DNA of 64,000 nt. Origin: Allofustis seminis DSM 15817 (GTDB taxonomy: Bacteria; Bacillota; Bacilli; Lactobacillales; Carnobacteriaceae_A). The stretch covers positions 62,001-126,000 of the forward strand of contig NZ_KB894081.1 in NCBI RefSeq assembly GCF_000374325.1, written 5' to 3'. The position numbers were made by a program, and so were the translations under genes. Of this stretch, positions 1 through 26,414 are shown one piece after another (position 1 is the first letter of the stretch; each line of letters begins with the position of its first letter). The notes under the pieces were generated by a model. The model worked only from the letters and a program-made list of their open reading frames with translations, did not search any database and was not told where the DNA came from.

Positions 1-1
1 T

Positions 2-1450
2 GATGGATTTTTAAGATGGGGAATATCCATCGGACTTTTAGATTATGATACAGAAAAAGATACAGTCTCTATAACAAAACTAGGAGAAAAGTTTGTAAAA
101 TCTAATTCTGAAGACCCAGATAAAGAAATATTAATTTCAGCTTTTTTGTCATATCCACCAGCCGTAAGAATTTTAACTTTACTGGAAAATGGAGACCATC
201 TAACAAAATTTGAACTTGGTAAGCAATTAGGAGGACTTGGAGAAGCTGGTTTTACATCAATTCCTCAAGATTTATATATCCAAGCAATAGAATTAGCAGC
301 TGATAAAGACAAAGCAAGTATTCGTTCAAATACAGAAGGGTCAGCAGATAAGTATGCAAGAATGATTTCAGGCTGGCTATCTAAGGTTGGGCTTGTGCAA
401 AGAGTTACAAAAGAAGTATCAACAAAAATAGGTAATATTGAGTATAAAATTAATATAGGTCATTCATTTAGAATTACTTTACTGGGTATTAAAGAACTTA
501 AAAGAGCAAGGGGATTATCTTCATATCCAAAGACAGATAAAATAGTATATTGGCAAATGCTAGCTACTAAGGGTAAAGATAGAGATTATATTAGAAATAG
601 ACGTGGGCACATAATTAAAGCAATTAATAACAGAGAAAGAAATTTGGAAAATATAAAATCCTATTTATTAGAAAATGATATTAAAGAGAACATCACAACT
701 ATAGAAGATGAGCTTAAAGTCATTGAAGCTATTGGTCTATCACTAAAACATAGTAGAAATGGCTATGTGATAGATGACAATATAATAAAATTAGAAATAC
801 CTAGAACAAAAATTTCTAAGACAAATGTATTAGAACTAAAGGATAAAGTAAGAAATAAATTAAAATATGTTGACCACAGATATCTAGCTCTAATTGACTT
901 AGCTTATGACGGAACTGCAAATAGAGATTTTGAAATTCAAACAATCGATCTTTTAATAAATGAGCTTAAGTTTAAGGGTGTGCGTCTAGGAGAAAGCAGA
1001 AAGCCAGATGGAATTATATCTTATGATATAAATGGCGTAATCATTGATAACAAGTCTTACTCTACTGGATATAATTTACCTATTAATCAAGCAGATGAAA
1101 TGATTAGATATATCGAAGAAAATCAAACTAGAGATGAAAAAATAAATTCAAATAAATGGTGGGAAAGCTTTGATGAGAAGGTAAAAGACTTTAATTATTT
1201 ATTTGTATCATCTTTCTTTAAGGGAAACTTTAAAAACAATTTGAAGCATATAGCTAATAGAACTGGAGTAAATGGTGGAGCTATAAATGTAGAAAACTTA
1301 CTTTATTTTGCAGAAGAATTAAAATCTGGGAGACTATCTTATGTTGATTCATTTACGATGTATGATAATGATGAGATATATGTAGGTAGTTTTACGGATT
1401 ACAGTAATGTTAAAATTGCTGCTGAAGAAGAAAGTCATTATTCGATTTAA
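2..1450 (+). CDS. FokI-like type IIS restriction endonuclease, 5'-truncated by window edge
   Basis: The frame is open from base 2, so the N-terminus lies outside the window; about 482 residues are visible against about 580 for FokI. The middle resembles the FokI recognition region (YPPAVRILTLLE, GLVQ). The last 200 residues match the FokI cleavage domain closely: SRKPDG near base 1000, then VIIDNKSYSTGYNLP, NQADEMIRYIEENQTR and LFVSSFFKGNF. The PD-(D/E)xK residues are visible as the Asp of RKPD and the Asp and Lys of IDNK. FokI binds GGATG and cuts outside it as a dimer; the same site here is inference from overall similarity. A matching methyltransferase should lie just upstream. The next gene follows after 27 bases with its own ribosome site, so the restriction gene abuts another defence module. 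Confidence 0.9.
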   Translation, partial: DGFLRWGISIGLLDYDTEKDTVSITKLGEKFVKSNSEDPDKEILISAFLSYPPAVRILTLLENGDHLTKFELGKQLGGLGEAGFTSIPQDLYIQAIELAADKDKASIRSNTEGSADKYARMISGWLSKVGLVQRVTKEVSTKIGNIEYKINIGHSFRITLLGIKELKRARGLSSYPKTDKIVYWQMLATKGKDRDYIRNRRGHIIKAINNRERNLENIKSYLLENDIKENITTIEDELKVIEAIGLSLKHSRNGYVIDDNIIKLEIPRTKISKTNVLELKDKVRNKLKYVDHRYLALIDLAYDGTANRDFEIQTIDLLINELKFKGVRLGESRKPDGIISYDINGVIIDNKSYSTGYNLPINQADEMIRYIEENQTRDEKINSNKWWESFDEKVKDFNYLFVSSFFKGNFKNNLKHIANRTGVNGGAINVENLLYFAEELKSGRLSYVDSFTMYDNDEIYVGSFTDYSNVKIAAEEESHYSI

Positions 1451-1477
1451 TAAAGTTAAATATGGAAAGGAGGGTAT

Positions 1478-2506
1478 ATGAACTTAGAAGAATATTATAT
1501 GGCACTTCCTAAAGATTTATCTGGAAGCATAACAAAAAATAGATTCAGGATGGAATTATTATGGGGTGTAAGTAAAATTATTGATGCCCATAAAGAAAGT
1601 GAAGATTATTCGGTAATATTTGATTTTAAATGTGATATTGAATTACACAAAGAACAAGAGATGTTTTTTTATCAAATAAAAACAAGAAAATCTGGAAGTT
1701 TTAATGAAAATAATTTGTGCAAAATAAATAATAAAGAAAATAATTCTATTTTAGGCAAGTTATATGCTCTTTACTCTCCTAATCAAAATATAAAATTGGC
1801 TATAGTGTGTAATAAACCGCTTAAAATAAGAAAAAAAGATATTGATTTTTACGAAAAACGTTTTGGAGAAATTGACAAAGATGCAATTGATGAAATAAAA
1901 AATAAGTTGCGTATAGAATTAAACATAGAATCAGTAAATATAGATAATGTATTTTATATATTTGATGAGATGGATTTTCAACACCCTGAAGATGCAATTA
2001 AAGGTAAATTAATAAGTTCTTTTGAAGAAATAAAAAATGAAGAGCCACAAAATCCGAATGCACTTTATAGATTGGTTATGGACACGGTAAAACAGAAAGC
2101 GGCATATGAGTTAGATGTAAAGGATTATGAAGAAGTAAAAAAGAAAAAGGGAATTACTCGAACTGAGTTTGATAGAATGTTAGATTCTCATAAAAAAGAA
2201 TCGAAAAATGGGATTAATGAAACACAAAATTTTATCAATACATTGTCATTAAGAAGACAAAGAAAATATAATATTGCATTAAGTGATTTACTAGAAATTC
2301 AAAATACTGAGAGTTTACGTTTAATAAGGGTACAAATTTTTAATTATATTCGCGAAAATGAAGATTCATTTATTGATGAAGAAGATTATTTGAATAAAAT
2401 ATCTAGAGTCTTTAATAACGATTTTAATATTGAAATAACAAATGATATGAAAGACGTGCAATATTTAATAGTTTATTTTATTTATGCGACTGGAGGGGAA
2501 ATATAA
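1478..2506 (+). CDS. DUF4297 (Cap4/LmuA-like) nuclease-type defence protein
   Basis: A 342-residue protein. The N-terminal half looks like a DUF4297 domain, a PD-(D/E)xK nuclease found in Cap4 and in Lamassu LmuA: it opens with LPKDLSGSITKNRFRMELLW, has an acidic strand (IFDFKCDIEL), then the catalytic-type FYQIKTRKSG with the Q-x-K signature. The C-terminal half is helical and charged and I do not recognise it. The start ATG has a good AAAGGAGGG site. Its stop overlaps the start of the next gene (TAATG), so the two are translationally coupled. A DUF4297 nuclease next to an SMC-like ATPase is the core of some Lamassu anti-phage systems. That assignment is inference; an ABC-three-component type system is the main alternative. 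Confidence 0.7.
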   Translation: MNLEEYYMALPKDLSGSITKNRFRMELLWGVSKIIDAHKESEDYSVIFDFKCDIELHKEQEMFFYQIKTRKSGSFNENNLCKINNKENNSILGKLYALYSPNQNIKLAIVCNKPLKIRKKDIDFYEKRFGEIDKDAIDEIKNKLRIELNIESVNIDNVFYIFDEMDFQHPEDAIKGKLISSFEEIKNEEPQNPNALYRLVMDTVKQKAAYELDVKDYEEVKKKKGITRTEFDRMLDSHKKESKNGINETQNFINTLSLRRQRKYNIALSDLLEIQNTESLRLIRVQIFNYIRENEDSFIDEEDYLNKISRVFNNDFNIEITNDMKDVQYLIVYFIYATGGEI

Positions 2507-4188
2507 TGAATTTAACTTTTGATCAAATATACATATTTGATATAAATAAAGAAGAAGCATATACACAAACTTTTTACAAAGGATTAAATATCATTACTTC
2601 CAGTGAAGTTGACGGAACTGACAGAGGAAAGTCCGTGTTGCTTAGAAGTTTATATCATTCTTTAGGAGCTGAAGCGAACTTTGATTCAAAATGGAATGAA
2701 AAAGATAAAGTATATATCCTTAAATTTAGTGTAGATGATAATAAGTATTCAATTTATAGATCTAAAAGATTGTTTAAAATATTTGATGATGAAAATCAAT
2801 TGATCTTCAAGACAATTCACAGATCTGAATTAGCAAAATTTATGGGGGAATTATTTGGTTTTACTATTTTTTTACCAAATAAGAATACAAAACAATTAGA
2901 AGTTGCACCTCCCGTGTATAGTTTCATTTTAAATTATTTGGATCAAGATAAATACGAAGGAACTAAATTCAGTTCTTTTAATAATCTTGCTCAATATAGC
3001 AATTTTAAAATAAATGTAATATACACGCACTTAGGTATATATAATAAAGATTACTTTGAACTAATTAAGCAAAAGGAAGAAATAGAAAGTAAAATTAAAA
3101 TCACTAAAGAAGAGATACAGGAATTAGATAAGTTAAAGAATAGAACTCTAGCAATGCTTAAGGGATTTTCTTGTCCAGAAACTAGTAGTGCTCTAGAAAA
3201 TGAATTAAAAATAGAATCGAAAGAGTATTCACTATTAATGAATAAAATGAGTGAAATTAGAAATAAACTTGTGGAACTAAGAAATCAATTAGAGGAACAA
3301 AAAATTGCCCTGAATCAGATTGATAAATTTGCAAAAAAACAAGAAAAAGAAATTAAAAATATTTTATTAACACATATATGTCCAGAGTGCCACACTATTT
3401 TAAACGATACTATAAATATAAGGAGCAAGAGATACAACAATGTTGATAACGCGATAGATTTAAAAGATACAATTAATGTAGAAAGCATTAAAATCAAAGA
3501 AGAAATTGAAAAATATGAAAAAGATTATTCTGAGTTGGCGGCTCACTTGAAAGAACATAATGAAAAAATATCTAGTAATAGAAAGGAAATCAATAACTAT
3601 ATAAAATTTAAAGGACTAAATGACTTAATAGATAAAATAAATAAGGATCTATTATTTAATAATGGCATGGTCTTACAAGCACAAGATGATATTAAACCTA
3701 TAAAAAAAGAAATAAAAGAAATTAGTCAAAGGATTAAATCTGTTGACGAAGATTATTATTATTTAATCGATAAATTGAAAAATAGATTTAATTTAAATGA
3801 ATTAGATGATACAAGCTATCAGAATTTATCTAAAAATTTTTGTGCTAGTGGTAGTAACAAACCTTTATCAACTGTTATATGGTATCTAACACTTAATGAT
3901 TTAAAACAAAAGTACAATTTTAAAGAAATTGAATTTCCAATGGTGTTTGATAGTCCAAATAATGTTGAAACCGATCAAGAGAAAAAGATAGCTTTAATTA
4001 AATTTATTTTAGAATCATCAAATAAATTCAATCAGATGATAATATCATCTATAGGGTTTTCTAAAAATGAATATGAAATAGATTCTGAAGTTCATATTAA
4101 GATTTTAGACAATGATAAATATCATCTGTTAAATGAGCCTGACTATATTCAAAACTATGAAATTTTGAAATATATGAATGATGCATAA
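2506..4188 (+). CDS. SMC/Rad50-like ATPase, probable partner of the DUF4297 nuclease
   Basis: A 560-residue protein with Rad50/SMC layout. An N-terminal ATPase half has a variant Walker A (DGTDRGKS, residues 36-43). Long coiled coil follows (about 185-285 and 315-430), interrupted by a zinc-hook-like CPECH at residues 292-296. The C-terminal half carries a signature-like SGSNKPLST and a Walker B-like FPMVFDSPNN. The P-loop keeps GKS but lacks the usual Gly-x-Gly. In Lamassu, LmuB senses aberrant DNA ends and releases the LmuA nuclease; the order nuclease-then-SMC with one-base overlap fits that model. No third (LmuC-like) gene follows: the next gene converges from the minus strand eight bases away. 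The SMC-like fold is clear; the named system is inference. Confidence 0.75.
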   Translation: MNLTFDQIYIFDINKEEAYTQTFYKGLNIITSSEVDGTDRGKSVLLRSLYHSLGAEANFDSKWNEKDKVYILKFSVDDNKYSIYRSKRLFKIFDDENQLIFKTIHRSELAKFMGELFGFTIFLPNKNTKQLEVAPPVYSFILNYLDQDKYEGTKFSSFNNLAQYSNFKINVIYTHLGIYNKDYFELIKQKEEIESKIKITKEEIQELDKLKNRTLAMLKGFSCPETSSALENELKIESKEYSLLMNKMSEIRNKLVELRNQLEEQKIALNQIDKFAKKQEKEIKNILLTHICPECHTILNDTINIRSKRYNNVDNAIDLKDTINVESIKIKEEIEKYEKDYSELAAHLKEHNEKISSNRKEINNYIKFKGLNDLIDKINKDLLFNNGMVLQAQDDIKPIKKEIKEISQRIKSVDEDYYYLIDKLKNRFNLNELDDTSYQNLSKNFCASGSNKPLSTVIWYLTLNDLKQKYNFKEIEFPMVFDSPNNVETDQEKKIALIKFILESSNKFNQMIISSIGFSKNEYEIDSEVHIKILDNDKYHLLNEPDYIQNYEILKYMNDA

Positions 4189-4196
4189 AAATGCAG

Positions 4197-5191
4197 TCAC
4201 CTCTCTACTTCCTTCCCATAGTAATTTTCATAGTTTTTCCTATATTGAACAAGGTCAGAAAATTGTTCTTTATTTAAAGAATACTCTTGCATAAGGGTGT
4301 TCTTTTTTTCTTGCAATTCATCGAGTTTCGTTAATATTTCTTTTGTGTTTGGTAGTTTTTTATAATTTTCTAAGATCTCTTTAGCGGCTATTTTATAGAC
4401 GGAAAGTTCGCTATAATACTCATCTGCAAATTGCTTATCATTAGGATTTTTCTTGTGGTATTTATAGATTTCACGATACTTATTTATAGTATTTATATTT
4501 TCCATATTTTGGGATAAACTCTTCATTTCAGTTTCAATTTTCTTTATTTTATCTAACAGATCTTGCCTATCATCGGCAGATTTTTTGATTAGCTCATCGA
4601 GTTGAGTAATTGAATTAATTCCTTGTTCTCTTAATTTAATTATTGAATCTGCCATTGTTTTGATATTATGTTTTCTTGCCCAAACTTCATAGCCTTTAGA
4701 GGATTGAGCTTTTTTATTAGTAGATATATCAATAACATTTCCTACTCGCTTTTTAATAGGATTAGCTTTATTTTTAATTGCTAGATCTATTCGTTCTTTG
4801 ATTTTTTCTTCAGTGTAATCGTCTCCGATAGTCTTCGATCTTGTAAATCTTTGCTTATCTTTATGACGAAAAGCAATGTGTTTACCAAACTTAATTTCAT
4901 AATCAAGATCCTTCATATTTTCTAAAAACTCTTCCCACGGTTTAGACTTATTAATCATTCTATCTATATCAAATTGTAGTTTAGATTTCCAGGAATTTCC
5001 TTTCTTGTTTTGGTCATATTCATACCAGGATTTACCCGCAGTTTTATATTTTCTTTTGTAAGCTTCATAATATTTATCAATGACTGAAAGCTTATTTTCT
5101 TTACATAATTCGTCACTTTGATACCTGATTTTATGGTAAGTTTTTCTGTTGGATTGGTAGCATTTACCAGTCGTGTAATTAACATTATTAA
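4197..5191 (-). CDS. Relaxase, 3' exon (C-terminal part) after the group II intron
   Basis: This is the downstream exon of a conjugative-element relaxase. Read from base 5191 it starts with TT, which joins the last T of exon 1 to make FNNVNYTTGKCYQSN, the usual continuation after the His motif in this family. It goes on with the conserved segment YHKIRYQSDELCKENKLSVI and a lysine-rich coiled C-terminus. Spliced exons (337 + 995 nt) give 443 codons plus stop with no frame break. The gene converges on the SMC gene. Without splicing the relaxase would be cut just after its metal-binding histidines, so function depends on the intron. An unspliced start codon at 5204 would be spurious. Confidence 0.85.
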
Positions 5192-5197
5192 GTAGGC

Positions 5198-5287
5198 TAA
5201 GCACCTAACGCCTTACATTATTTCTAATGTAGGTTTTTAGATACTCGCCCCCAAACCGTACGTACACCTCTCGATGTATACGGCTTT
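5198..5287 (-). ncRNA. Group II intron domains V and VI
   Basis: On the minus strand, AGCCGTATACAT-CGAGAGG-TGTACGTACGGTTT (bases 5287 to 5253) folds as the 34-nt catalytic domain V, with the AGC triad and a GAGA-type tetraloop. Just downstream, CCTACATT and AATGTAAGG form a domain VI helix with an unpaired A, the expected branch point. The 3' splice site follows about 20 nt later, a slightly long tail. Confidence 0.85.
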
Positions 5288-5291
5288 CCAT

Positions 5292-7169
5292 TTATTCTTC
5301 ATTTGAGTTATTAATTTTTCCAAAACATTCATTACAAATTACTAGAGTTTTTCTATTAATGCTTTTCATAAAAATATGCCAAGCGTATTCATCAGTTAAG
5401 TCTTTAAGCTTTTTTACTTGATACACTTTTAGATTATTAGTTTCTTTCCCGCACCATTCACACTTATTATTTTTTAATCTTAAACCTAGTGTTGGTTTCT
5501 TAAGATAGAATTTTTGCTTATGAATCATATCAGCATTATCACATTGGGGAAATTCTTTTCTAGCCAAGCTGTCTTTCCAAAGTAAACGAGTTTTGTTATT
5601 ACCATTTTTATCTGTATAACTTATACCAAAATCTTTATCAGTGCGGTATCTAGTTATAATATCCGTTACCTTTGTCCTATATTTGCAAGCCAATGTTTTA
5701 TACAGACTGTATTCCATAATGTATCTAAACTTATGGAGTTTTGAAGAATTATTTGCGAGTCTGTAGTAGTTACAGAATCCTCTAATTTCTCCGTTATATT
5801 GCTCTAATATGCTTAAGTCTGTTCTTGATGTTAGTTTAGTTCTTTCTTTAGGAAACCATACTTCTTTTCCATTTAGATTTTTAATTCTTAATGCTCCAAG
5901 CTCTACTAGCTTATTTTGTATTGTTGAAGTTGATAGTTCAAGTCTTACATTACCACCAAAGTTTCTTGCTTTTATACCTGCTTTTGTCCTCTTTGTATGA
6001 TTACTTCTAGGAGTTATTCTGATATCAAAACCTAGGAACTTGGCTCTATCTGTTGATTTTGTTACTAGTGTTTTTTCATCAGATAGTTCGAGGTTTAATT
6101 CTGATTTGATAAATTGACCAATGTCTTGTTTTACCTTTTCAGCATCTGCCTTAGAACCGATAATGCCAATAATGAAATCATCAGCATATCTAACATACTG
6201 TATTCTCTTGAAGTTTTTATCCATAGGATTTAAGCAAGGTATATTGAAATATCTTTTGTTTATCTCTTCAATTTCTGATTTAATATCATCTATTTCAATT
6301 TTATTAGTTGTCTTGCTTAACTTATTTTCAAGTCTTTTTCTTCTATCATAAAGAGCTTTATATTCCTTATTTTGCTTTCTTTTATTACCTTTATCAAAGC
6401 TTTCCTTGTAACTTTGCATATACTTGTCAAACTTATCCAAGTAAATATTTGAAAGTATGGGACTTATTATTGACCCTTGTGGCATTCCACTGTAGGTGTT
6501 GTGATATTGGTTTTGTTCCATGTATCCAGCTTTAAGAAACTTTCTTATTAATCTTAGGAATCTTTCATCGTCAATACGCTTGGATAGAATGTCTATCATA
6601 ATGTTATGGTCTATATTGTCAAAGAAACCTTTAATGTCTCCTTCAACGAACCATTTACATCTTACAAATCTATTTTGAATTTGTCTTAAAGCGGTATGAC
6701 AACTTCTATTATCTCTAAAGCCATGAGATGTGTCCTCAAAGCTTTCATCATAGATGGAATTTAATAACATTCTACATACTTCCTGTACTAATTTATCATC
6801 AATACTTGGTATGCCTAATGGTCTTAATTTCCTGTTTTTCTTTGGAATATATACTCTTTTTGTTGGTGTGGGTGAGTAACTTTCATTTTTTAGTGAATCA
6901 ATGATTTTGTTAATTCTTTCTAAGCTCATTGCACTTATTGTTTGATTATCTACACCTTTGGTCATATTTCCTGCGTTAGCATAAATATTTTGGTATGCTT
7001 GTAAGAACAGGTCTATGTTGTAAAGGTTACGATACAATCTTTTGTAAGTGTAGTTTTCATCTTTTGAATGTTTTCTCAAACTAATCAATACATTGTTGGG
7101 ATTTCTCATAGTGCCTCTCGCACCTTCCTTTCCTCTGAATTGAATGAATAAACTGCCTTCCTTCACCAT
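5292..7169 (-). CDS. Group II intron-encoded protein (reverse transcriptase/maturase)
   Basis: A 625-residue LtrA-like protein. RT motifs are present in order: PLGIPSIDDKLVQE (117-130), GDIKGFFDNIDH (177-188), MPQGSIISPILSNIY (229-243) and the catalytic YADD at 328-331. A maturase X region follows with the PLR-type segment. The C-terminus is a Cys4 HNH-like module (CEWCG...CNECF, about 560-620), but the catalytic histidine pair normally found after the first Cys pair is replaced by YQ (KVYQVKKLKDL) and the last His is Asn. The RT and maturase look intact, while DNA second-strand cleavage may be lost. The start could be the given Met or the internal MRNPNN at residue 21. Confidence 0.93.
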   Translation of the reverse strand: MVKEGSLFIQFRGKEGARGTMRNPNNVLISLRKHSKDENYTYKRLYRNLYNIDLFLQAYQNIYANAGNMTKGVDNQTISAMSLERINKIIDSLKNESYSPTPTKRVYIPKKNRKLRPLGIPSIDDKLVQEVCRMLLNSIYDESFEDTSHGFRDNRSCHTALRQIQNRFVRCKWFVEGDIKGFFDNIDHNIMIDILSKRIDDERFLRLIRKFLKAGYMEQNQYHNTYSGMPQGSIISPILSNIYLDKFDKYMQSYKESFDKGNKRKQNKEYKALYDRRKRLENKLSKTTNKIEIDDIKSEIEEINKRYFNIPCLNPMDKNFKRIQYVRYADDFIIGIIGSKADAEKVKQDIGQFIKSELNLELSDEKTLVTKSTDRAKFLGFDIRITPRSNHTKRTKAGIKARNFGGNVRLELSTSTIQNKLVELGALRIKNLNGKEVWFPKERTKLTSRTDLSILEQYNGEIRGFCNYYRLANNSSKLHKFRYIMEYSLYKTLACKYRTKVTDIITRYRTDKDFGISYTDKNGNNKTRLLWKDSLARKEFPQCDNADMIHKQKFYLKKPTLGLRLKNNKCEWCGKETNNLKVYQVKKLKDLTDEYAWHIFMKSINRKTLVICNECFGKINNSNEE

Positions 7170-7668
7170 GCGAGAGTCATTATCTCTCTCGGATTACTAC
7201 GAAGGCTCCGTTACCATATCAGATATTCAGGCTCTTAAAAACCATAGCATTTTATCGCTTTCTGACTTAGGTAATCTCCATTTAGTATCGAAGTAAAAAG
7301 CGGACGTTGATTGTCGGATATGCTTTTCGTCCTTTCATGCTTATGCAAGCGGATTGAGTGTAAAGTTTTGCCTATTGCATTAATCTTCGCTACATAGGTA
7401 CACTCAACATAACGTATATAGATATCTTTCGTTATGACCACCACAAATGTTCCTCGGACTGGCATTCAATCAGTTTAGACTTTATCCTTATATCAACTTT
7501 AGGTCTCGCCATTCAGTCGTGGAATGATATCTATCCAACTTATGACTTTAATAACGTGCTAATGTCCTCTTTGGATTTCTCCTCTAAGTTAGTTATTGAC
7601 CTTAGATATTAAAACTACTATTCTACCATTTTGCTAAAATGGATTTACTTCGTACCTTATGGACGCAC

Positions 7669-8005
7669 AAATAATATGGTTATGGATATGCCCTCTATCT
7701 ACATGAGTTGCAAGTACAAACTCATAATCTTCTTTTAAAATTTTCTTACATAATTCCATTCCAATTTCGTGAGCTTTTATAGGATCAACCTCTCCTGGTA
7801 GAAAAGATTGGATTAAATGCCTAGCTAAAACTGTACCTTTAGTATCATTGTCTTCTCGTGTTTTCATAAATTGAATATGGGCAGTAGATGAGTGACATTT
7901 GAATGAAGATACTAAGATTTTTTCATCAGTTTTTTCACTCTTGGTAATGTAATCTATTGCCAAATTTAGAGTTGACTTTATAGGATGTATTTTTGTAATT
8001 GCCAT
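7669..8005 (-). CDS. Relaxase, 5' exon (N-terminal catalytic part)
   Basis: This exon encodes the N-terminal half of a MobP-type relaxase: MAITKIHPIKSTLNLAIDYI at the start, then SFKC, and THVDRGHIHNHII at the exon border, the HxHxH-like metal-binding triad. Relaxases of this class nick oriT of conjugative elements. I chose ATG at 8005 (MAITKIHPI is the family's usual beginning); GTG at 8014 is in frame and possible. The start lies directly behind the mobC stop, so the two are coupled. The intron follows the first base of the Phe codon. Confidence 0.85.
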
Positions 8006-8006
8006 A

Positions 8007-8363
8007 TTAGTCACCAGAACTTTCTTTTGATTTATTAAGAAGTAGGGAATGAATCTGCCATATTTCTTTTGATAATTTTTCTATCTGCTTATTCATAGAC
8101 TCAATTTCATTTTTGTATATAACACCAGTTGTATTAGTAGCTTTTGCAATCTGGTTTATATTATTTGTTGCATTTGAAAGTAGCCATTGTAGGTTTCTAA
8201 ATGGTTCTAAATCTACTACATAAATTTCTTTTTCTAATACGCATTTCCTCAAAAAGTGGGACATTGTTTTACAATTTGCAAGTTTCATTTTCTTTTCAAA
8301 AGTTTCTTTTTCTTCATCTGTTAAATATATTTTTAATTGATTATTTCTTTTTCTATTATCCAT
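8007..8363 (-). CDS. MobC-like relaxosome accessory protein
   Basis: A 118-residue basic protein that opens with a ribbon-helix-helix-like stretch (NNQLKIYLTDEEKETFEKKM) and contains SNATNNINQIAKATN, the hallmark of plasmid-mobilization MobC proteins. These bind near oriT and help the relaxase melt the nick site. I chose the ATG at 8363 because AAGGAG lies eight bases upstream; a longer frame to 8486 has no such site. It sits directly upstream of the relaxase, the usual mobC-relaxase order. Confidence 0.82.
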   Translation of the reverse strand: MDNRKRNNQLKIYLTDEEKETFEKKMKLANCKTMSHFLRKCVLEKEIYVVDLEPFRNLQWLLSNATNNINQIAKATNTTGVIYKNEIESMNKQIEKLSKEIWQIHSLLLNKSKESSGD

Positions 8364-8500
8364 AGTATATCTCCTTATCATAAAATATTGGGGTCTTAGG
8401 GTTCTCCCTAACAAGGTAAAATTGATAAAAAAAGAAGCAGTCCATAAAGGTTCTGCTTCATCAATTTTTCGTGAGTGGGTACTCACTTACTGTGCTTGCT

Positions 8501-15874: not shown

Positions 15875-17713
15875 ATGATAGAATATCATAACAAAATCAC
15901 AGCACTATACTCCCGCCTTTCAGTTGGTGATGAAGATAGAGACGGTGGCGAGAGTAATAGTATTGTCAATCAAAAAGCCTTTTTAGAAAGGTATGCAAGA
16001 GATAAAAAGCTGATAAACATTCGCCATTATATCGACGATGATGAAAGCGGTAGGTTCTTTGATCGTTCAGCCTATACACAGATGATAAGCGATGTAGAGC
16101 AAGGCAAAATCGGAATTGTCATCATGAAAGATATGACGAGATGGGGAAGAGATTATCTTCAAGTCGGTAATGCAATGGAGATATTCAGAAGAAACAATGT
16201 ACGCTTTATCGCTATCAATAATGGAATAGATAGCATTGACCAAAACACATTGGAATTTGCTCCATTTATCAACATCATGTCAGAGTGGTATGCAAGAGAC
16301 ATCAGCAAGAAAGTAAAGACGGGAATTAAAACCAAAGGAGCAGACGGAAAGCCTGTTGCAACAGAAGCCCCATACGGCTATATAAAAGACCCTGAGAACA
16401 AAGATTATTGGATAGTCGATAAAGAAGCTGCCGAAGTTGTAAAACTCATTTTCAGGCTATTTATGGAGGGGAAAAACAGAAATCAGATAGCTGTTTACCT
16501 GAAAGAAAAAGAAATACTAACCCCAACCTTTTATATGAAACAACAAGGCAGAGGAACAGCAAAAAACAAACCACTAAATGAAGAAAACAGATATAACTGG
16601 AACAAAGCAACTCTAACACGCATACTGAAAAGACAAGAGTATTGTGGTGATGTAGTCAACTTCAAGACCGAAAAGCATTACAGAGATAAGAGAAACCATT
16701 ATGTAGATAAAAGCAAATGGCAAATAACAGAAAATGTGCATGAGCCTATAATAGATAGACCTACCTTTGAAAATGTAGAGCGTATGTTAAAAAATGCACC
16801 TGTAAAAAGACCAAACGGAGACGGAGAAATTCACGCATTATCAGGACTGATGTACTGTAAAGATTGCGGAACAAAAATGCACATTCGCACCATACACAAA
16901 AACGAAAAAGTACAGCATGTAACCTATTGCAGTGAATATGCCAAAGGGAAAGCAAAGCACCCCAAATGCAACTCCCCACACCGAATTGATGTTGATGAGG
17001 TTATGGAAAATATCGCAGAAGTCTTGCGAAAGATAGCACAGTATTCTTTGGAAAACAAAGCAGAATTTGAGAAACTTGTAAAGAAAAGTCTGTATAAAGA
17101 ACAGACCGAAGAAGTCAAGAAAAATCAAAAGCGTATGCCACAAATCACAGATCGAATGGAACAGATAGAAAGAGTGATGAATAAACTCTATGAAGATAAT
17201 GCACTTGGAAATCTGGATACAGAACGCTATGAGCAGTTATCAAGAAAGTATGCAGAAGAATACTACACCTTAAAAGCAGAAAAAGAAGAAATCAAAGAAC
17301 GCTTATCCGAATGTGAAAATGCAAACCAAAGAGCAAAGAAATTTATCAGACTTGCAGAAAGCTATTCCAACTTTGAAGAACTTACCCCTACCATTATCAA
17401 TGAGTTTATCAGTAAAATCGCAGTGCATGAAAGAGATGTAAAAAGAGCAAAATATGTAGTTCAACGAATAGAGGTTTATTTTAACTATATCGGAAAATTT
17501 GAAAATGAACTTACAAAACAGATAGAGCCGACAGAACAAGAAATGATACAGATGAGGGAAGAAATAGAAGAAGCAAAGAGAGAAAAATCACGAGCTTATC
17601 ATAGGGCATATTCTAAAGCATACAGAGCCAAAAATCTTGAAAAGTGCCGAGAGTATGAAAAATTAAAAGCAAGAGAATACAGAGCAAAAAAGAAACTACA
17701 AGCAACAACCTAA
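15875..17713 (+). CDS. Large serine recombinase of IME-1
   Basis: A 612-residue TnpX-like recombinase. The catalytic serine is S16 in ALYSRLSVGDE. Conserved features follow: MKDMTRWGRDYLQVG, FIAINNGIDS, MSEWYARDISKK, the APYGY recombinase motif, a zinc ribbon (CKDCGTKM) and a long coiled coil. The ribosome site is AAAGGAGG. It should catalyse excision and integration at the virD4 site. The tail is rich in Arg/Lys/Tyr repeats (HRAYSKAYRAKN). Confidence 0.93.
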   Translation: MIEYHNKITALYSRLSVGDEDRDGGESNSIVNQKAFLERYARDKKLINIRHYIDDDESGRFFDRSAYTQMISDVEQGKIGIVIMKDMTRWGRDYLQVGNAMEIFRRNNVRFIAINNGIDSIDQNTLEFAPFINIMSEWYARDISKKVKTGIKTKGADGKPVATEAPYGYIKDPENKDYWIVDKEAAEVVKLIFRLFMEGKNRNQIAVYLKEKEILTPTFYMKQQGRGTAKNKPLNEENRYNWNKATLTRILKRQEYCGDVVNFKTEKHYRDKRNHYVDKSKWQITENVHEPIIDRPTFENVERMLKNAPVKRPNGDGEIHALSGLMYCKDCGTKMHIRTIHKNEKVQHVTYCSEYAKGKAKHPKCNSPHRIDVDEVMENIAEVLRKIAQYSLENKAEFEKLVKKSLYKEQTEEVKKNQKRMPQITDRMEQIERVMNKLYEDNALGNLDTERYEQLSRKYAEEYYTLKAEKEEIKERLSECENANQRAKKFIRLAESYSNFEELTPTIINEFISKIAVHERDVKRAKYVVQRIEVYFNYIGKFENELTKQIEPTEQEMIQMREEIEEAKREKSRAYHRAYSKAYRAKNLEKCREYEKLKAREYRAKKKLQATT

Positions 17714-19057: not shown

Positions 19058-19117
19058 AGGAAGTTCTATCTATCTCCACCATAACCATATCAGAAAATGG
19101 AAAGGAGGTTTTTAACT

Positions 19118-20578
19118 ATGGCGATATATCATCTTTGCATAAAGATTATTTCAAGAGGTAAAGGCAAAAGTGCAGTAGCAGCTTCCGCCTATCGAAGTGG
19201 CGAGAAGATAAAAAACGAATATGACGGTATAGTCCATGACTTTACAAGAAAAGGTGGAATAGCCCATACAGAAATTCTTTTACCACAAAATGCACCACAG
19301 GAATTTTCAGATAGAGGGACATTATGGAATAGTGTTGAAAAAATAGAAAAGAGTAAAAACTCACAACTTGCAAGAGAAATTGAAGTAGCCTTACCCAAAG
19401 AATTAGACCGAGAGAAACAAATAAATCTTGTACGAGAATATGTAAAAGAAAATTTTGTAAAAGTAGGTATGTGTGCCGATATTGCAATACATGATAAAAA
19501 TGATGGAAACCCACATTGTCATATATTACTTACCATGCGACCACTAAACGAGGATACAACATGGGGAGCAAAATCAAAAAAGGAATATATCCTTGATGAA
19601 AACGGAGAAAAAGTAAAACTCAAAAATGGAAATTACAAAACACGAAAAGTCAATACAACAGATTGGAATGAGCAAGACAAAGCAGAAGAGTGGCGAAAAG
19701 CATGGGCAGATATCACAAACAAATATCTTGAAGAAAACAGCATACAGGAGAAAGTGGATCATCGCTCTTATCTAAGGCAAGGAATAGAACAAATACCGAC
19801 CATTCATTTAGGAGTATCAGCAACACAAATGGAAAAGAAAGGCATATCCACAGACAGAGGAAACATCAACAGAGAAATCATACATCAAAACAAGATATTA
19901 AAAGAAATCTCAAGAAGAATAAAAGCCTTGCTAAATTGGATAAGGGGAATTGGAAAAGAAGAAAATACAGAAAATGAAAATATAAAGTTCACCCTCCCAC
20001 TCAAAGAAAATTTGCAGTCAATCTTTGAAAATCTTATCCGTAAAAATGCAGATAAGAATAATGCAGATTTAGAAAAATATATTGAGAGTTATCAGCTACT
20101 CAAAGATAAAAATATCACTTCATTATCCCAGCTAAAAGAAAGTATAGTTACCTTACGAGATAAGAATTACAAGACCACAAGAGCCTTAAAAGATACCGAA
20201 AAGAAAGTTGATGATAAAACAAAACTCATAGACCAGTCAGAAAAATATTTGAAGCATAAGGACACCTACAAAGCCTATACCAAGACAAAGAAAAGCAAAC
20301 AGGGGAATTTTTATAACGAGCATACTGCAGAAATTATTTTATTTGAAAGTGCTAAGAAATATTTGAAAGACCATTTAGGAGAAAGTAAAACCTTAGCCAT
20401 CAGTAAATGGAAATCAGAACTTGCCACTTTGAAGAAAGAGAAAAAGAACCTATACAGTCAAATATTGGAGATACGAGAAGAAGTTGAACAGGCAGAAAAA
20501 GTTAAAACCTGTATAGAGCAATTACAGGAACATTCAAAGGAACTAACACAGATCAAGGGTAAAGATTTTCAACTTTAG
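19118..20578 (+). CDS. MobA/MobL (MobQ) relaxase of IME-1
   Basis: A 486-residue relaxase. The N-terminal domain has AIYHLCIKIISRGKGKSAVA, ASAYRSGEK, REIEVALPKEL and the metal-binding DGNPHCHILLTMRPL. The C-terminus is coiled coil. It should nick the oriT just upstream. I chose the ATG at 19118 because AAAGGAGG is correctly placed and MAIYH is the family start. It is about 80 per cent identical by eye to the copy at 24930 in the first 280 residues and diverges after that. Confidence 0.92.
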   Translation: MAIYHLCIKIISRGKGKSAVAASAYRSGEKIKNEYDGIVHDFTRKGGIAHTEILLPQNAPQEFSDRGTLWNSVEKIEKSKNSQLAREIEVALPKELDREKQINLVREYVKENFVKVGMCADIAIHDKNDGNPHCHILLTMRPLNEDTTWGAKSKKEYILDENGEKVKLKNGNYKTRKVNTTDWNEQDKAEEWRKAWADITNKYLEENSIQEKVDHRSYLRQGIEQIPTIHLGVSATQMEKKGISTDRGNINREIIHQNKILKEISRRIKALLNWIRGIGKEENTENENIKFTLPLKENLQSIFENLIRKNADKNNADLEKYIESYQLLKDKNITSLSQLKESIVTLRDKNYKTTRALKDTEKKVDDKTKLIDQSEKYLKHKDTYKAYTKTKKSKQGNFYNEHTAEIILFESAKKYLKDHLGESKTLAISKWKSELATLKKEKKNLYSQILEIREEVEQAEKVKTCIEQLQEHSKELTQIKGKDFQL

Positions 20579-21739: not shown

Positions 21740-21982
21740 TGGGGAACTAAAAAAGATATAGAGCCATATATGGATGAAAAGTTTCAAAATAATATTTTGC
21801 TTACACAAACCGAAAGACTGATAATGAATGGCAGACCGGCAAATCCAAAGTATGCAAGAAATAAGAATGTACTTGTAATCGGTGGTTCAGGAAGTGGAAA
21901 AACCCGATTTTATGTCAAACCTAACTTAATGCAGATGCACAGTAGCTATTGTGTAACTGATCCCAAAGGATTAACCTTTTAG
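21740..21982 (+). pseudogene. VirD4-type coupling protein, ATPase-domain fragment
   Basis: This resumes virD4 after IME-1: WGTKKDIEPYMDEKF, then the Walker A segment VIGGSGSGKTRFYVKP and SSYCVTDPKG. At DPKG the gene is broken again by IME-2, whose first bases add LTF and a stop. The rest of virD4 is absent from the window. Confidence 0.9.
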
Positions 21983-22024: not shown

Positions 22025-23695
22025 ATGTCAAATACAAAAAGAACAGGACAAACAGCCCTTTATGAGCGTTTAAGTCGTGATGATGAAATGCAAGGAGAAA
22101 GCAATTCCATTACCAATCAAAAGCAGCTACTTGAAAGCTATGCCAAAAGAAACGGCTTTGTAAATATTTATCACTATACAGACGATGGAGTAAGCGGAAC
22201 AACCTTTGATAGAGAGGGATTTCAAAAGATGATAAAAGCAGTAGAAGAAAACAAAGTATCTACTGTGATAGTAAAAGATATGAGTAGGTTTGGCAGAGAT
22301 TACCTCAAAGTAGGCTTTTACACCGAAATACTTTTCAAAGAAAAGGGAGTAAGATTTATCGCCATCAATAACGGAATAGACAGCGAAAAACAATCAGAAA
22401 GCGACTTTACCCCATTTCTAAATATTATGAACGAATGGTATGCAAGAGATACCTCAAGAAAAATACAATCCATCTTCAGAGCAAGAATGGAAGAGGGCAA
22501 AAGAGTATCACCAAGCGTTCCATATGGCTATTTTAGAAACCCTAAGAACAAACAGGAGTTACTTGTCGATAAAGAAAGTTCAAAGGTCGTAAAACGCATT
22601 TACAGGCTTGTTATAGAGGGATATGGAGTAACACAGATAGCAGATATACTAACCAAAGATAAAGTCCTTATCCCATCAGCCTATGCAGAAATACACTATC
22701 CTGAAAATAACCACAGCTCCAAGAAAAGAGGAATAGAAGACCCGTATTTTTGGACACCAACCACAGTAGGTTATATCTTAGAAAAGCAAGAATACATGGG
22801 ACATACTGTACTTGGTAAAACAATATGCCTTGATTATAAGACCAAGAAACGAAGAAAGGCGAAAGAAGATGAACTCATTATATTCAAAAATACCCATGAA
22901 GCTATCATAGATGAAGAAACATGGAACAATGCTCAACGCTTAAGAAAGACAGTAAGAAGAAGTCCGAAGTACGGGACAACCTCACACCCCTTTACAGGAC
23001 TTTTAATCTGTTCAGATTGTGGAGGAAAGTTAAGTTACAGAGAGCCGGCAGAACATAAAGAAAAGAAATATGATTGTGATTATTGCTTTGTATGTCAACA
23101 TTACAGACACAGAAAAGGAAGTTGCAGTATGCACTACATCAAAGTAAAAACAGTGAATGAAATTCTCCTAAAATCCATCAAAGAAATAACCAATTTTGCA
23201 AAAGAAGAAAAGCAAGAATTTCTAAAAGTGATGAACAAGTTATCTGATGAAAAAAGAGAAGAAAAATATCAAGAGGATAAAGAAAAGTTAGAAAAACTGT
23301 CATCAAGAAATGAAGAACTAACAACCCTTATTACAAAGCTATATGAAGACCATGCACTTGGAAAAATTCCTGTAAAACACTTTGATAGATTATTTAACAC
23401 CTATGATACAGAGCAACAAGACTTAGAAAAACAAATACAGTATTTTGAAAATGAAATAGAAAGCTATCATCAGAGAAAAGTTGATACCGATAAATTCCTG
23501 AAGATGATAGAGAAATATACCGACATTGAGGAACTGACAGTACCAATGATAAATGAGTATATAGAAAAAGTTGTAGTCCATGAAGCCACAGGGGGAAGAA
23601 AAGGCAAAGACAGAAAACAACAAGTTGATGTGTATTTTAACTTTATAGGAAACTGTCAAGTACCACAGAAAGTAGATATAGAAAAAATGGCTTAA
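22025..23695 (+). CDS. Large serine recombinase of IME-2
   Basis: A 556-residue TnpX-like recombinase with the catalytic serine S17 in ALYERLSRDDE. VKDMSRFGRDYLKVG, the VPYGYFRNP motif and a zinc ribbon (CSDCGGKL...CFVCQHYRHR) are present. It has an AAAGGAGG site 45 bases from the element's left edge. The gene is intact; the near-identical copy at 27511 is broken. Confidence 0.93.
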   Translation: MSNTKRTGQTALYERLSRDDEMQGESNSITNQKQLLESYAKRNGFVNIYHYTDDGVSGTTFDREGFQKMIKAVEENKVSTVIVKDMSRFGRDYLKVGFYTEILFKEKGVRFIAINNGIDSEKQSESDFTPFLNIMNEWYARDTSRKIQSIFRARMEEGKRVSPSVPYGYFRNPKNKQELLVDKESSKVVKRIYRLVIEGYGVTQIADILTKDKVLIPSAYAEIHYPENNHSSKKRGIEDPYFWTPTTVGYILEKQEYMGHTVLGKTICLDYKTKKRRKAKEDELIIFKNTHEAIIDEETWNNAQRLRKTVRRSPKYGTTSHPFTGLLICSDCGGKLSYREPAEHKEKKYDCDYCFVCQHYRHRKGSCSMHYIKVKTVNEILLKSIKEITNFAKEEKQEFLKVMNKLSDEKREEKYQEDKEKLEKLSSRNEELTTLITKLYEDHALGKIPVKHFDRLFNTYDTEQQDLEKQIQYFENEIESYHQRKVDTDKFLKMIEKYTDIEELTVPMINEYIEKVVVHEATGGRKGKDRKQQVDVYFNFIGNCQVPQKVDIEKMA

Positions 23696-24830: not shown

Positions 24831-24929
24831 TCCCAAAAGAAATCGGATAAAAAGTTATCCGATTTTTTTAGAAAGTCTTATCTATCGCCACTATAACCAT
24901 ATCGAAAAATGGAAAGGAGGTTTTTGACT

Positions 24930-26414
24930 ATGGCGATATATCATCTTTGCATAAAGATTATCTCAAGAGGCAAAGGCAAAAGTGCAGTAGCAGCTTCCGC
25001 CTATCGAAGTGGCGAAAAGATAAAAAACGAGTATGACGGCATAGTCCATGACTTTACAAGAAAAGGAGGAATAGCCCATACAGAAATCCTATTGCCACAA
25101 AATGCACCACAGGCATTTTTAGACAGGGGAACATTATGGAATAGCGTAGAGAAAATAGAAAAGAGTAAAAACTCACAGCTTGCAAGAGAAATCGAAATTG
25201 CTTTACCTAAAGAACTAAATCGAGAAAAACAGATTGAACTTGTTAGGGAGTATGTAAAAGATAATTTTGTAAATGTTGGTATGTGTGCCGACATTGCCTT
25301 ACACGATAAAGATGATGGAAACCCACACGCACATATCCTACTAACAATGCGACCGTTAAATGAAGATACAACATGGGGAGCAAAATCAAAAAAGGAATAT
25401 ATCCTTGATGAAAACGGAGAAAAAGTAAAACTTAAAAACGGCAATTACAAAACAAGAAAAATAGATACAGTCGATTGGAACGAGCAAGACAAAGCAGAAG
25501 AGTGGCGAAAGTCGTGGGCAGATATTACAAACAAATATCTTGAAGAAAACAGTATACAGGAAAAAGTTGACCACCGCTCCTATGAAAGACAAGGCATAGA
25601 ACAAATACCGACCATTCATTTAGGAGTATCGGCAAGTCAAATGGAGAAAAAAGGTATTGTTACCAACAGAGGAAATATCAACCGAGAAATCAAACATCAA
25701 AACAAGATATTAAGAGAAATTGCAAGACGAATAAAAGCCTTAATGAGATGGATAAGGAGTTTAACGAAAGATAAAAATAATGATACTTCAAAAGATAAAC
25801 AGGACGATATGGCTATACAATCCACTACCCTACCAAAACAAAATGATTTAACAGATATGCTCTCTTATTTCATAAAAGAAAACTCAGATAACCACAATGC
25901 AGACTTAGAAAAATATATTGAAAGCTATCAATTCCTTAAAGAAAAAAATATTACATCAATATACGAATTGAAAGAAAGTATATCAGCATTAAGAGATAAG
26001 AATTACAAGACTACAAGAGCCATAAAAGATACTGAAAAGAAAACCAATGACAGAGTACAGCTTATCGACCAAGCAGAAAAATATTTGAAACATAAAGACA
26101 TATATAAAAACTATACCAAGATAAAGAAAAGCAAGCAGGAAGATTTTTATAACGAATATACCGCAGAGATTATTTTATTTGAGAGTGCAAGAAAATATCT
26201 AAAAGAACATTTAGGAGAAAGCAAGACCTTAGCTATATCAAAATGGAAATCAGAAGTTACCACTTTGAAGAAAGAGAAAAATAGCCTATATAATCAAATA
26301 TTGGAGATACGAGAGGAAGTAGGACAAGCAGAAAAAGTTAAAACCTGTATAGAGCAGTTACAGGAACAAGAAAAGCGACTAACACAGGTAAAGAGGAACG
26401 AGTTAGACCTATAA
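24930..26414 (+). CDS. MobA/MobL (MobQ) relaxase of IME-2
   Basis: A 494-residue relaxase close to the IME-1 copy: the same AAAGGAGG site, the same MAIYHLCIKI start, and metal-binding DGNPHAHILLTMRPL (HAH instead of HCH). The coiled C-terminus diverges between residues 285 and 320. It should act on the oriT upstream. Confidence 0.92.
   Translation: MAIYHLCIKIISRGKGKSAVAASAYRSGEKIKNEYDGIVHDFTRKGGIAHTEILLPQNAPQAFLDRGTLWNSVEKIEKSKNSQLAREIEIALPKELNREKQIELVREYVKDNFVNVGMCADIALHDKDDGNPHAHILLTMRPLNEDTTWGAKSKKEYILDENGEKVKLKNGNYKTRKIDTVDWNEQDKAEEWRKSWADITNKYLEENSIQEKVDHRSYERQGIEQIPTIHLGVSASQMEKKGIVTNRGNINREIKHQNKILREIARRIKALMRWIRSLTKDKNNDTSKDKQDDMAIQSTTLPKQNDLTDMLSYFIKENSDNHNADLEKYIESYQFLKEKNITSIYELKESISALRDKNYKTTRAIKDTEKKTNDRVQLIDQAEKYLKHKDIYKNYTKIKKSKQEDFYNEYTAEIILFESARKYLKEHLGESKTLAISKWKSEVTTLKKEKNSLYNQILEIREEVGQAEKVKTCIEQLQEQEKRLTQVKRNELDL

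Follow-up and report, generated by a model that had tools for sequence, protein, structure and literature searches.

A two-gene Lamassu type I system in mobile DNA of Allofustis seminis

To characterise a candidate defence locus in Allofustis seminis DSM 15817, we analysed a stretch of 64,000 nucleotides (contig NZ_KB894081.1, positions 62,001 to 126,000), referred to here as the window, and found that two adjoining genes near its start almost certainly make up an entire two-gene Lamassu system (type I) directed against phages or plasmids, in which an LmuB sensor would hold and release an LmuA nuclease. By composition, profile and fold, the locus is Lamassu type I, the two-gene form in which Lamassu was originally described (PMC12409362), and it is ordinary for that family. 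The first gene, lmuA (1478 to 2506, forward strand), encodes a 342-residue effector with an N-terminal Cap4/DUF4297 nuclease domain of the PD-(D/E)xK type and a helical C-terminal region, and the second, lmuB (2506 to 4188, forward strand), encodes a 560-residue SMC/Rad50-like ATPase sensor. Profile searches matched LmuA to the PADLOC LmuA model PDLC00239 over residues 1-341 of 342 (E 3e-143) and LmuB to the PADLOC LmuB model PDLC00254 over residues 1-559 of 560 (E 2.3e-223). An earlier note on this DNA had proposed a Lamassu-like system and a search with LmuA and LmuB profiles as the check; these full-length matches bear out the assignment to Lamassu and, with the fold match to an LmuAB complex given below, support full membership of the family rather than mere likeness to it.

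The two open reading frames lie exactly where the earlier note had placed them, with the one-base overlap that it described; ORF coordinates and the window sequence show the join at 2506 to be a TAATG stop/start. A ribosome site of the AAGGAGG type lies 5′ of lmuA. The FokI-type gene upstream stops only 27 nt before lmuA, and the stop codon of lmuB is 8 nt from that of a convergent relaxase gene, so there is no space for the gene of a third subunit. A search for an LmuC/DdmB/MC gene between or beside lmuA and lmuB found none at the locus, and the earlier statement that there is no third gene therefore stands. The G+C content of lmuAB is 25%, against 35% for the window, which is consistent with separate acquisition. 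Promoter-like sites were about as frequent as chance predicts (27 against 29.4 expected).

The nuclease assignment, also put forward in the earlier note as DUF4297, was confirmed by a profile match of LmuA residues 15-208 to Pfam Cap4_nuclease (PF14130, E 3.6e-54). We aligned nine LmuA sequences, the relatives being 20-98% identical to the window protein, and found D49, D53, Q66, K68 and T69 to be invariant in all nine. Three of these residues fall in the QIKTR nuclease motif (residues 66-70; 1673 to 1687, forward strand), which together with D49 and D53 makes up the putative active site.

LmuB carries a set of ABC-type ATPase motifs and a zinc-hook motif in its coiled coil, all on the forward strand. 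The Walker A sequence (P-loop) DGTDRGKS (residues 36-43; 2611 to 2634) has G41, K42 and S43 invariant in the alignment, and the pattern (D/N)G(T/N)DxGKS is found in seven of the nine aligned members; L012 has TGNDVGKS, and L006, the most distant pair, alone departs from the P-loop pattern. A CPEC zinc-hook motif (residues 292-295; 3379 to 3390), reported earlier and found here to be CPxC family-wide, has C292, P293 and C295 invariant in 9/9 sequences and in the predicted structure sits between long helices at 227-289 and 303-427. An ABC signature-like sequence, ASGSNKPLS (3844 to 3870, with G449 and S450 invariant), is followed by the Walker B sequence FPMVFDSP (3934 to 3957), in which a serine replaces the usual catalytic glutamate and a conserved glutamate lies six residues past the aspartate; D482, S483, P484 and E488 are invariant in 9/9. 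This change fits a review account of LmuB proteins with a catalytic Glu to Gln substitution, whose ATP hydrolysis may be slow or absent (PMC10586767).

All nine aligned members also match the PADLOC LmuB profile, and further PADLOC LmuB models match the window protein. Relatives that share 33-39% identity also have the P-loop and CPxC hook and, since the P-loop, hook, signature and Walker B are common to relatives, what had been taken for variant features are features of the family. The sequence DGTDRGKS is indeed present, but we dropped the idea that it is an unusual variant. The length of 560 residues was likewise correct but the description of LmuB as small was not, most of the matched PADLOC models having about 550-580 positions; a truncated LmuB was rejected as a candidate, a 563-position model being matched at 2-560.

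To place the pair among its relatives, we compared homologous pairs found in genomes of the class and phylum, on a Planococcus plasmid, on a 'phage' contig of fecal origin and in an Ezakiella metagenome-assembled genome (MAG); L011, a weak LmuB relative with no LmuA match, was excluded from the family alignments. In each of seven divergent pairs, as in the near-identical copy from Ezakiella, the order is lmuA-lmuB, the genes overlapping or abutting with nothing in between, and LmuB is 560-565 residues long in pairs with a recognisable LmuA. Of the 27 genomes in the window's family, PDLC00254 matched only that of the window itself; it matched 4 of 399 genomes of the class and 5 of 398 in the phylum sample, these five including the window's genome and one weak match. 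No nucleotide match to the locus was found in the E. coli collection. The Ezakiella copy (L007) is about 96% identical, its proteins 96-98%, and comparison with it gave dN/dS values of 0.11 for lmuA (0.011/0.102) and 0.18 for lmuB (0.018/0.104). Both genes have therefore been kept under constraint, and these substitution ratios indicate that purifying selection acts on lmuA and lmuB.

Structural comparison used AlphaFold2 models built on 7-sequence alignments from which the plasmid and phage rows were excluded; because they rest on seven sequences and have mean pLDDT values of 78.3 (LmuB) and 75.8 (LmuA), structural matches past domain level carry limited weight. The top Foldseek match of LmuB was 9ux7_A (E 1.1e-22), from the PDB entry titled 'CryoEM Structure of LmuAB-DNA complex'; LmuB chains of type II were among those ranked next. 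The 9ux7 LmuB is also the sole convincing PDB sequence relative of LmuB when an alignment profile is used (E 1.1e-33), whereas phmmer searches of PDB sequences with LmuA or LmuB alone turned up no real relatives. For LmuA, an alignment profile found no relative among PDB sequences but fold comparison did: the top VIA-align match was 9ux7_C (Z 15.8 over 290 residues, rmsd 7.3), and Foldseek placed the Hachiman entry 8zue first and 9ux7_C second. In VIA-align the nuclease part of LmuA was also matched by the Cap4-domain effectors of HerA-DUF4297, Hachiman, Avs3 and CBASS Cap4.

Two other origins for such a pair were weighed against Lamassu type I. The Rad50/SMC fold and zinc-hook motif of LmuB would also suit a DNA-repair pair with a housekeeping role, such as SbcCD/Rad50-Mre11, but the partner gene encodes a Cap4 nuclease and not a calcineurin-like phosphoesterase, and lmuA and lmuB are located in mobile DNA and occur sporadically among the family and class genomes counted above. 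A better match to a housekeeping family had been named in advance as the result that would speak against Lamassu; general SMC/Rad50 NCBIfam models scored far below their cut-offs, the Rad50 match being negligible (E 0.097) and PRK03918 reaching 10.6 bits where the cut-off is 700. We regard a repair pair as extremely unlikely. Given that many Lamassu systems carry a third gene, LmuC (PMC10586767), and that none is present here, the locus might instead be what remains of a type II Lamassu (DdmABC/LmuACB) after loss of the small middle gene, reduced or defective and possibly non-functional. However, two genes are the originally described type I composition, a two-component LmuAB-DNA complex has been solved (9ux7), and the two-gene layout is common to relatives at 33-39% identity. 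Moreover, PDB chains of type II LmuB are mostly longer, at about 630-650 residues, and all match more weakly, and the selection evident on both genes argues against decay. A degraded type II system thus appears very improbable, and we retain the reading of an intact Lamassu type I pair.

The pair lies within a mobile defence island, as had been proposed, in which large serine recombinases on one side and a relaxase on the other enclose an AbiE pair, a FokI-type restriction-modification (R-M) system and Lamassu. Positions 1 to 1450 (forward strand) cover the 3′ portion of a gene for a FokI-type restriction endonuclease of type IIS; the full gene, recovered in L003, starts 320 bases before the window and encodes 589 residues that match PADLOC REase_II PDLC03477 (E 3e-152). 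The earlier note's FokI-like enzyme proved to be genuinely related to FokI (FokI_cleav_dom, E 3e-66). Besides this endonuclease, the DNA upstream of the window encodes AbiEi and AbiEii as well as two adenine methyltransferases of the D12 class, and large serine recombinases, recognised by sequence, precede these genes. The AbiE genes, a type IV toxin-antitoxin pair at L003:2610-4036, share the island with lmuAB.

Comparison with the Ezakiella element reveals that the R-M genes differ between otherwise matching flanks. L007 is 95.7% identical to window positions 1465-5191, 89% identical to 7669-8500, a match that directly adjoins the former in L007, and 91% identical to the stretch 2224-2834 bases before the window. 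Between the flanks, the window-side cassette (-2223 to 1464; L003:4778-8465) comprises the FokI-type endonuclease and two D12 methyltransferases, whereas L007:753-4959 encodes a fused C5/Eco57I-type methyltransferase (MTase_II PDLC03277) and a REase_II (PDLC03488). The right-hand junction is 13 nt 5′ of the lmuA start codon. The cassette has therefore been exchanged beside a retained Lamassu.

Downstream of lmuB, and convergent with it, lies a MobA/VirD2-type relaxase gene that is split by a group II intron, all on the reverse strand. The 3′ exon (4197 to 5191; 95.7% identical to the uninterrupted L007 relaxase region) and the 5′ exon (7669 to 8014; PF03432, E 4.4e-28 at G000:C3:69646-69951) flank the intron (5192 to 7668), which has an RF00029 match at 5192-5288 and encodes a reverse transcriptase/maturase (5292-7169; RVT_1, E 1.2e-35). 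Since the L007 relaxase lacks the intron and is contiguous across the site, the comparison gives the exact intron ends. The joined exons read open, the spliced frame having one stop codon, and we dropped the proposal that the intron necessarily disables the relaxase, as the predicted spliced frame is open. The sole coupling-protein match in the genome is a VirD4/TraG-type fragment covering 45 of 468 profile positions (window about 21836-21979), and the element is therefore mobilisable at most: the relaxase of the earlier note is confirmed, in intron-split form, but its description of the element as conjugative is not.

Elsewhere in the window, the ORFs at 19097-20578 and 24909-26414 have the same start sequence, MERRFLTMAIYHLCIKII, and look MobA/MobL-like by eye. 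Both follow serine recombinase-like ORFs (15875-17713 and 22025-23695) by 1-1.5 kb, and the paired recombinase-like and MERRFLTMAIYHLCIKII ORFs suggest a duplicated mobile unit. The IMG/VR contig L002 (IMGVR_UViG_2518285549_000001) is 100% identical to the lmuAB region over 7.7 kb; as the genes around this region belong to a mobilisable element and a defence island, this 'viral' contig is probably a misclassified non-viral element.

Lamassu is described in reviews as an abortive-infection-type defence in which an SMC-like sensor reads DNA ends or secondary structures and LmuA is activated (PMC10586767, PMC12904381); a review addendum on DdmABC and other Lamassu homologues describes LmuA as liberated on activation and forming a tetramer (PMC12409362). 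By analogy with these reviewed systems, we infer that the window LmuAB follows the same scheme. The ABC heads and CPxC hook would mediate dimerisation of LmuB, which, as in the studied Lamassu systems, would survey DNA ends or unusual DNA structures, with LmuA kept inactive in the resting complex. On sensing of foreign DNA, LmuA would be released or rearranged and oligomerise, and its Cap4 nuclease domain would then cut DNA, giving abortive-infection-type protection against phage or plasmid. One might further imagine a relay with the adjoining type II/IIS R-M system, in which restriction-made ends on unmodified incoming DNA are read by LmuB, releasing LmuA. An R-M system is present beside lmuAB in both closest copies although the types differ, FokI-type in the window and another methyltransferase/endonuclease pair in L007; on the Planococcus plasmid, an AlwI-type enzyme is encoded near the Lamassu copy. 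Such adjacency is accounted for equally well by co-location in defence islands, and we consider the relay improbable.

New here, in a modest way, are an intact type I Lamassu pair in the window's lineage, a small-genome Firmicute, and a near-identical pair of elements in which Lamassu was retained while the adjacent R-M cassette was swapped. The swap illustrates the shuffling of defence genes on mobilisable elements; the locus by itself opens no new mechanism.

Among known systems, the closest counterpart is the Lamassu type I complex of 9ux7, which like the window system consists of two proteins only, with a Cap4-fold LmuA. Its LmuB (562 residues, against 560 in the window protein) likewise has a CxxC hook, a GxxxGKS P-loop and a serine after the Walker B aspartate. 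Identity in structural alignment is about 20% over LmuB and 12% over LmuA, and the 9ux7 protein differs in a P-loop region three residues shorter and in having DSFIKNE at the Walker B DSP site. The type II systems DdmABC of Vibrio cholerae and LmuACB of Salmonella (PDB 9hqu, 9hqx, 9hr5) combine a Cap4 effector with an SMC-like sensor of the same fold classes, but possess a third protein, LmuC/DdmB, and an LmuB mostly of about 630-650 residues, neither of which is found at this locus. The effectors of CBASS Cap4, Avs3 and HerA-DUF4297 share the Cap4/DUF4297 nuclease fold of LmuA, but couple it to a SAVED domain, a STAND NTPase and HerA, respectively, whereas the partner in the window is an SMC-like ATPase.
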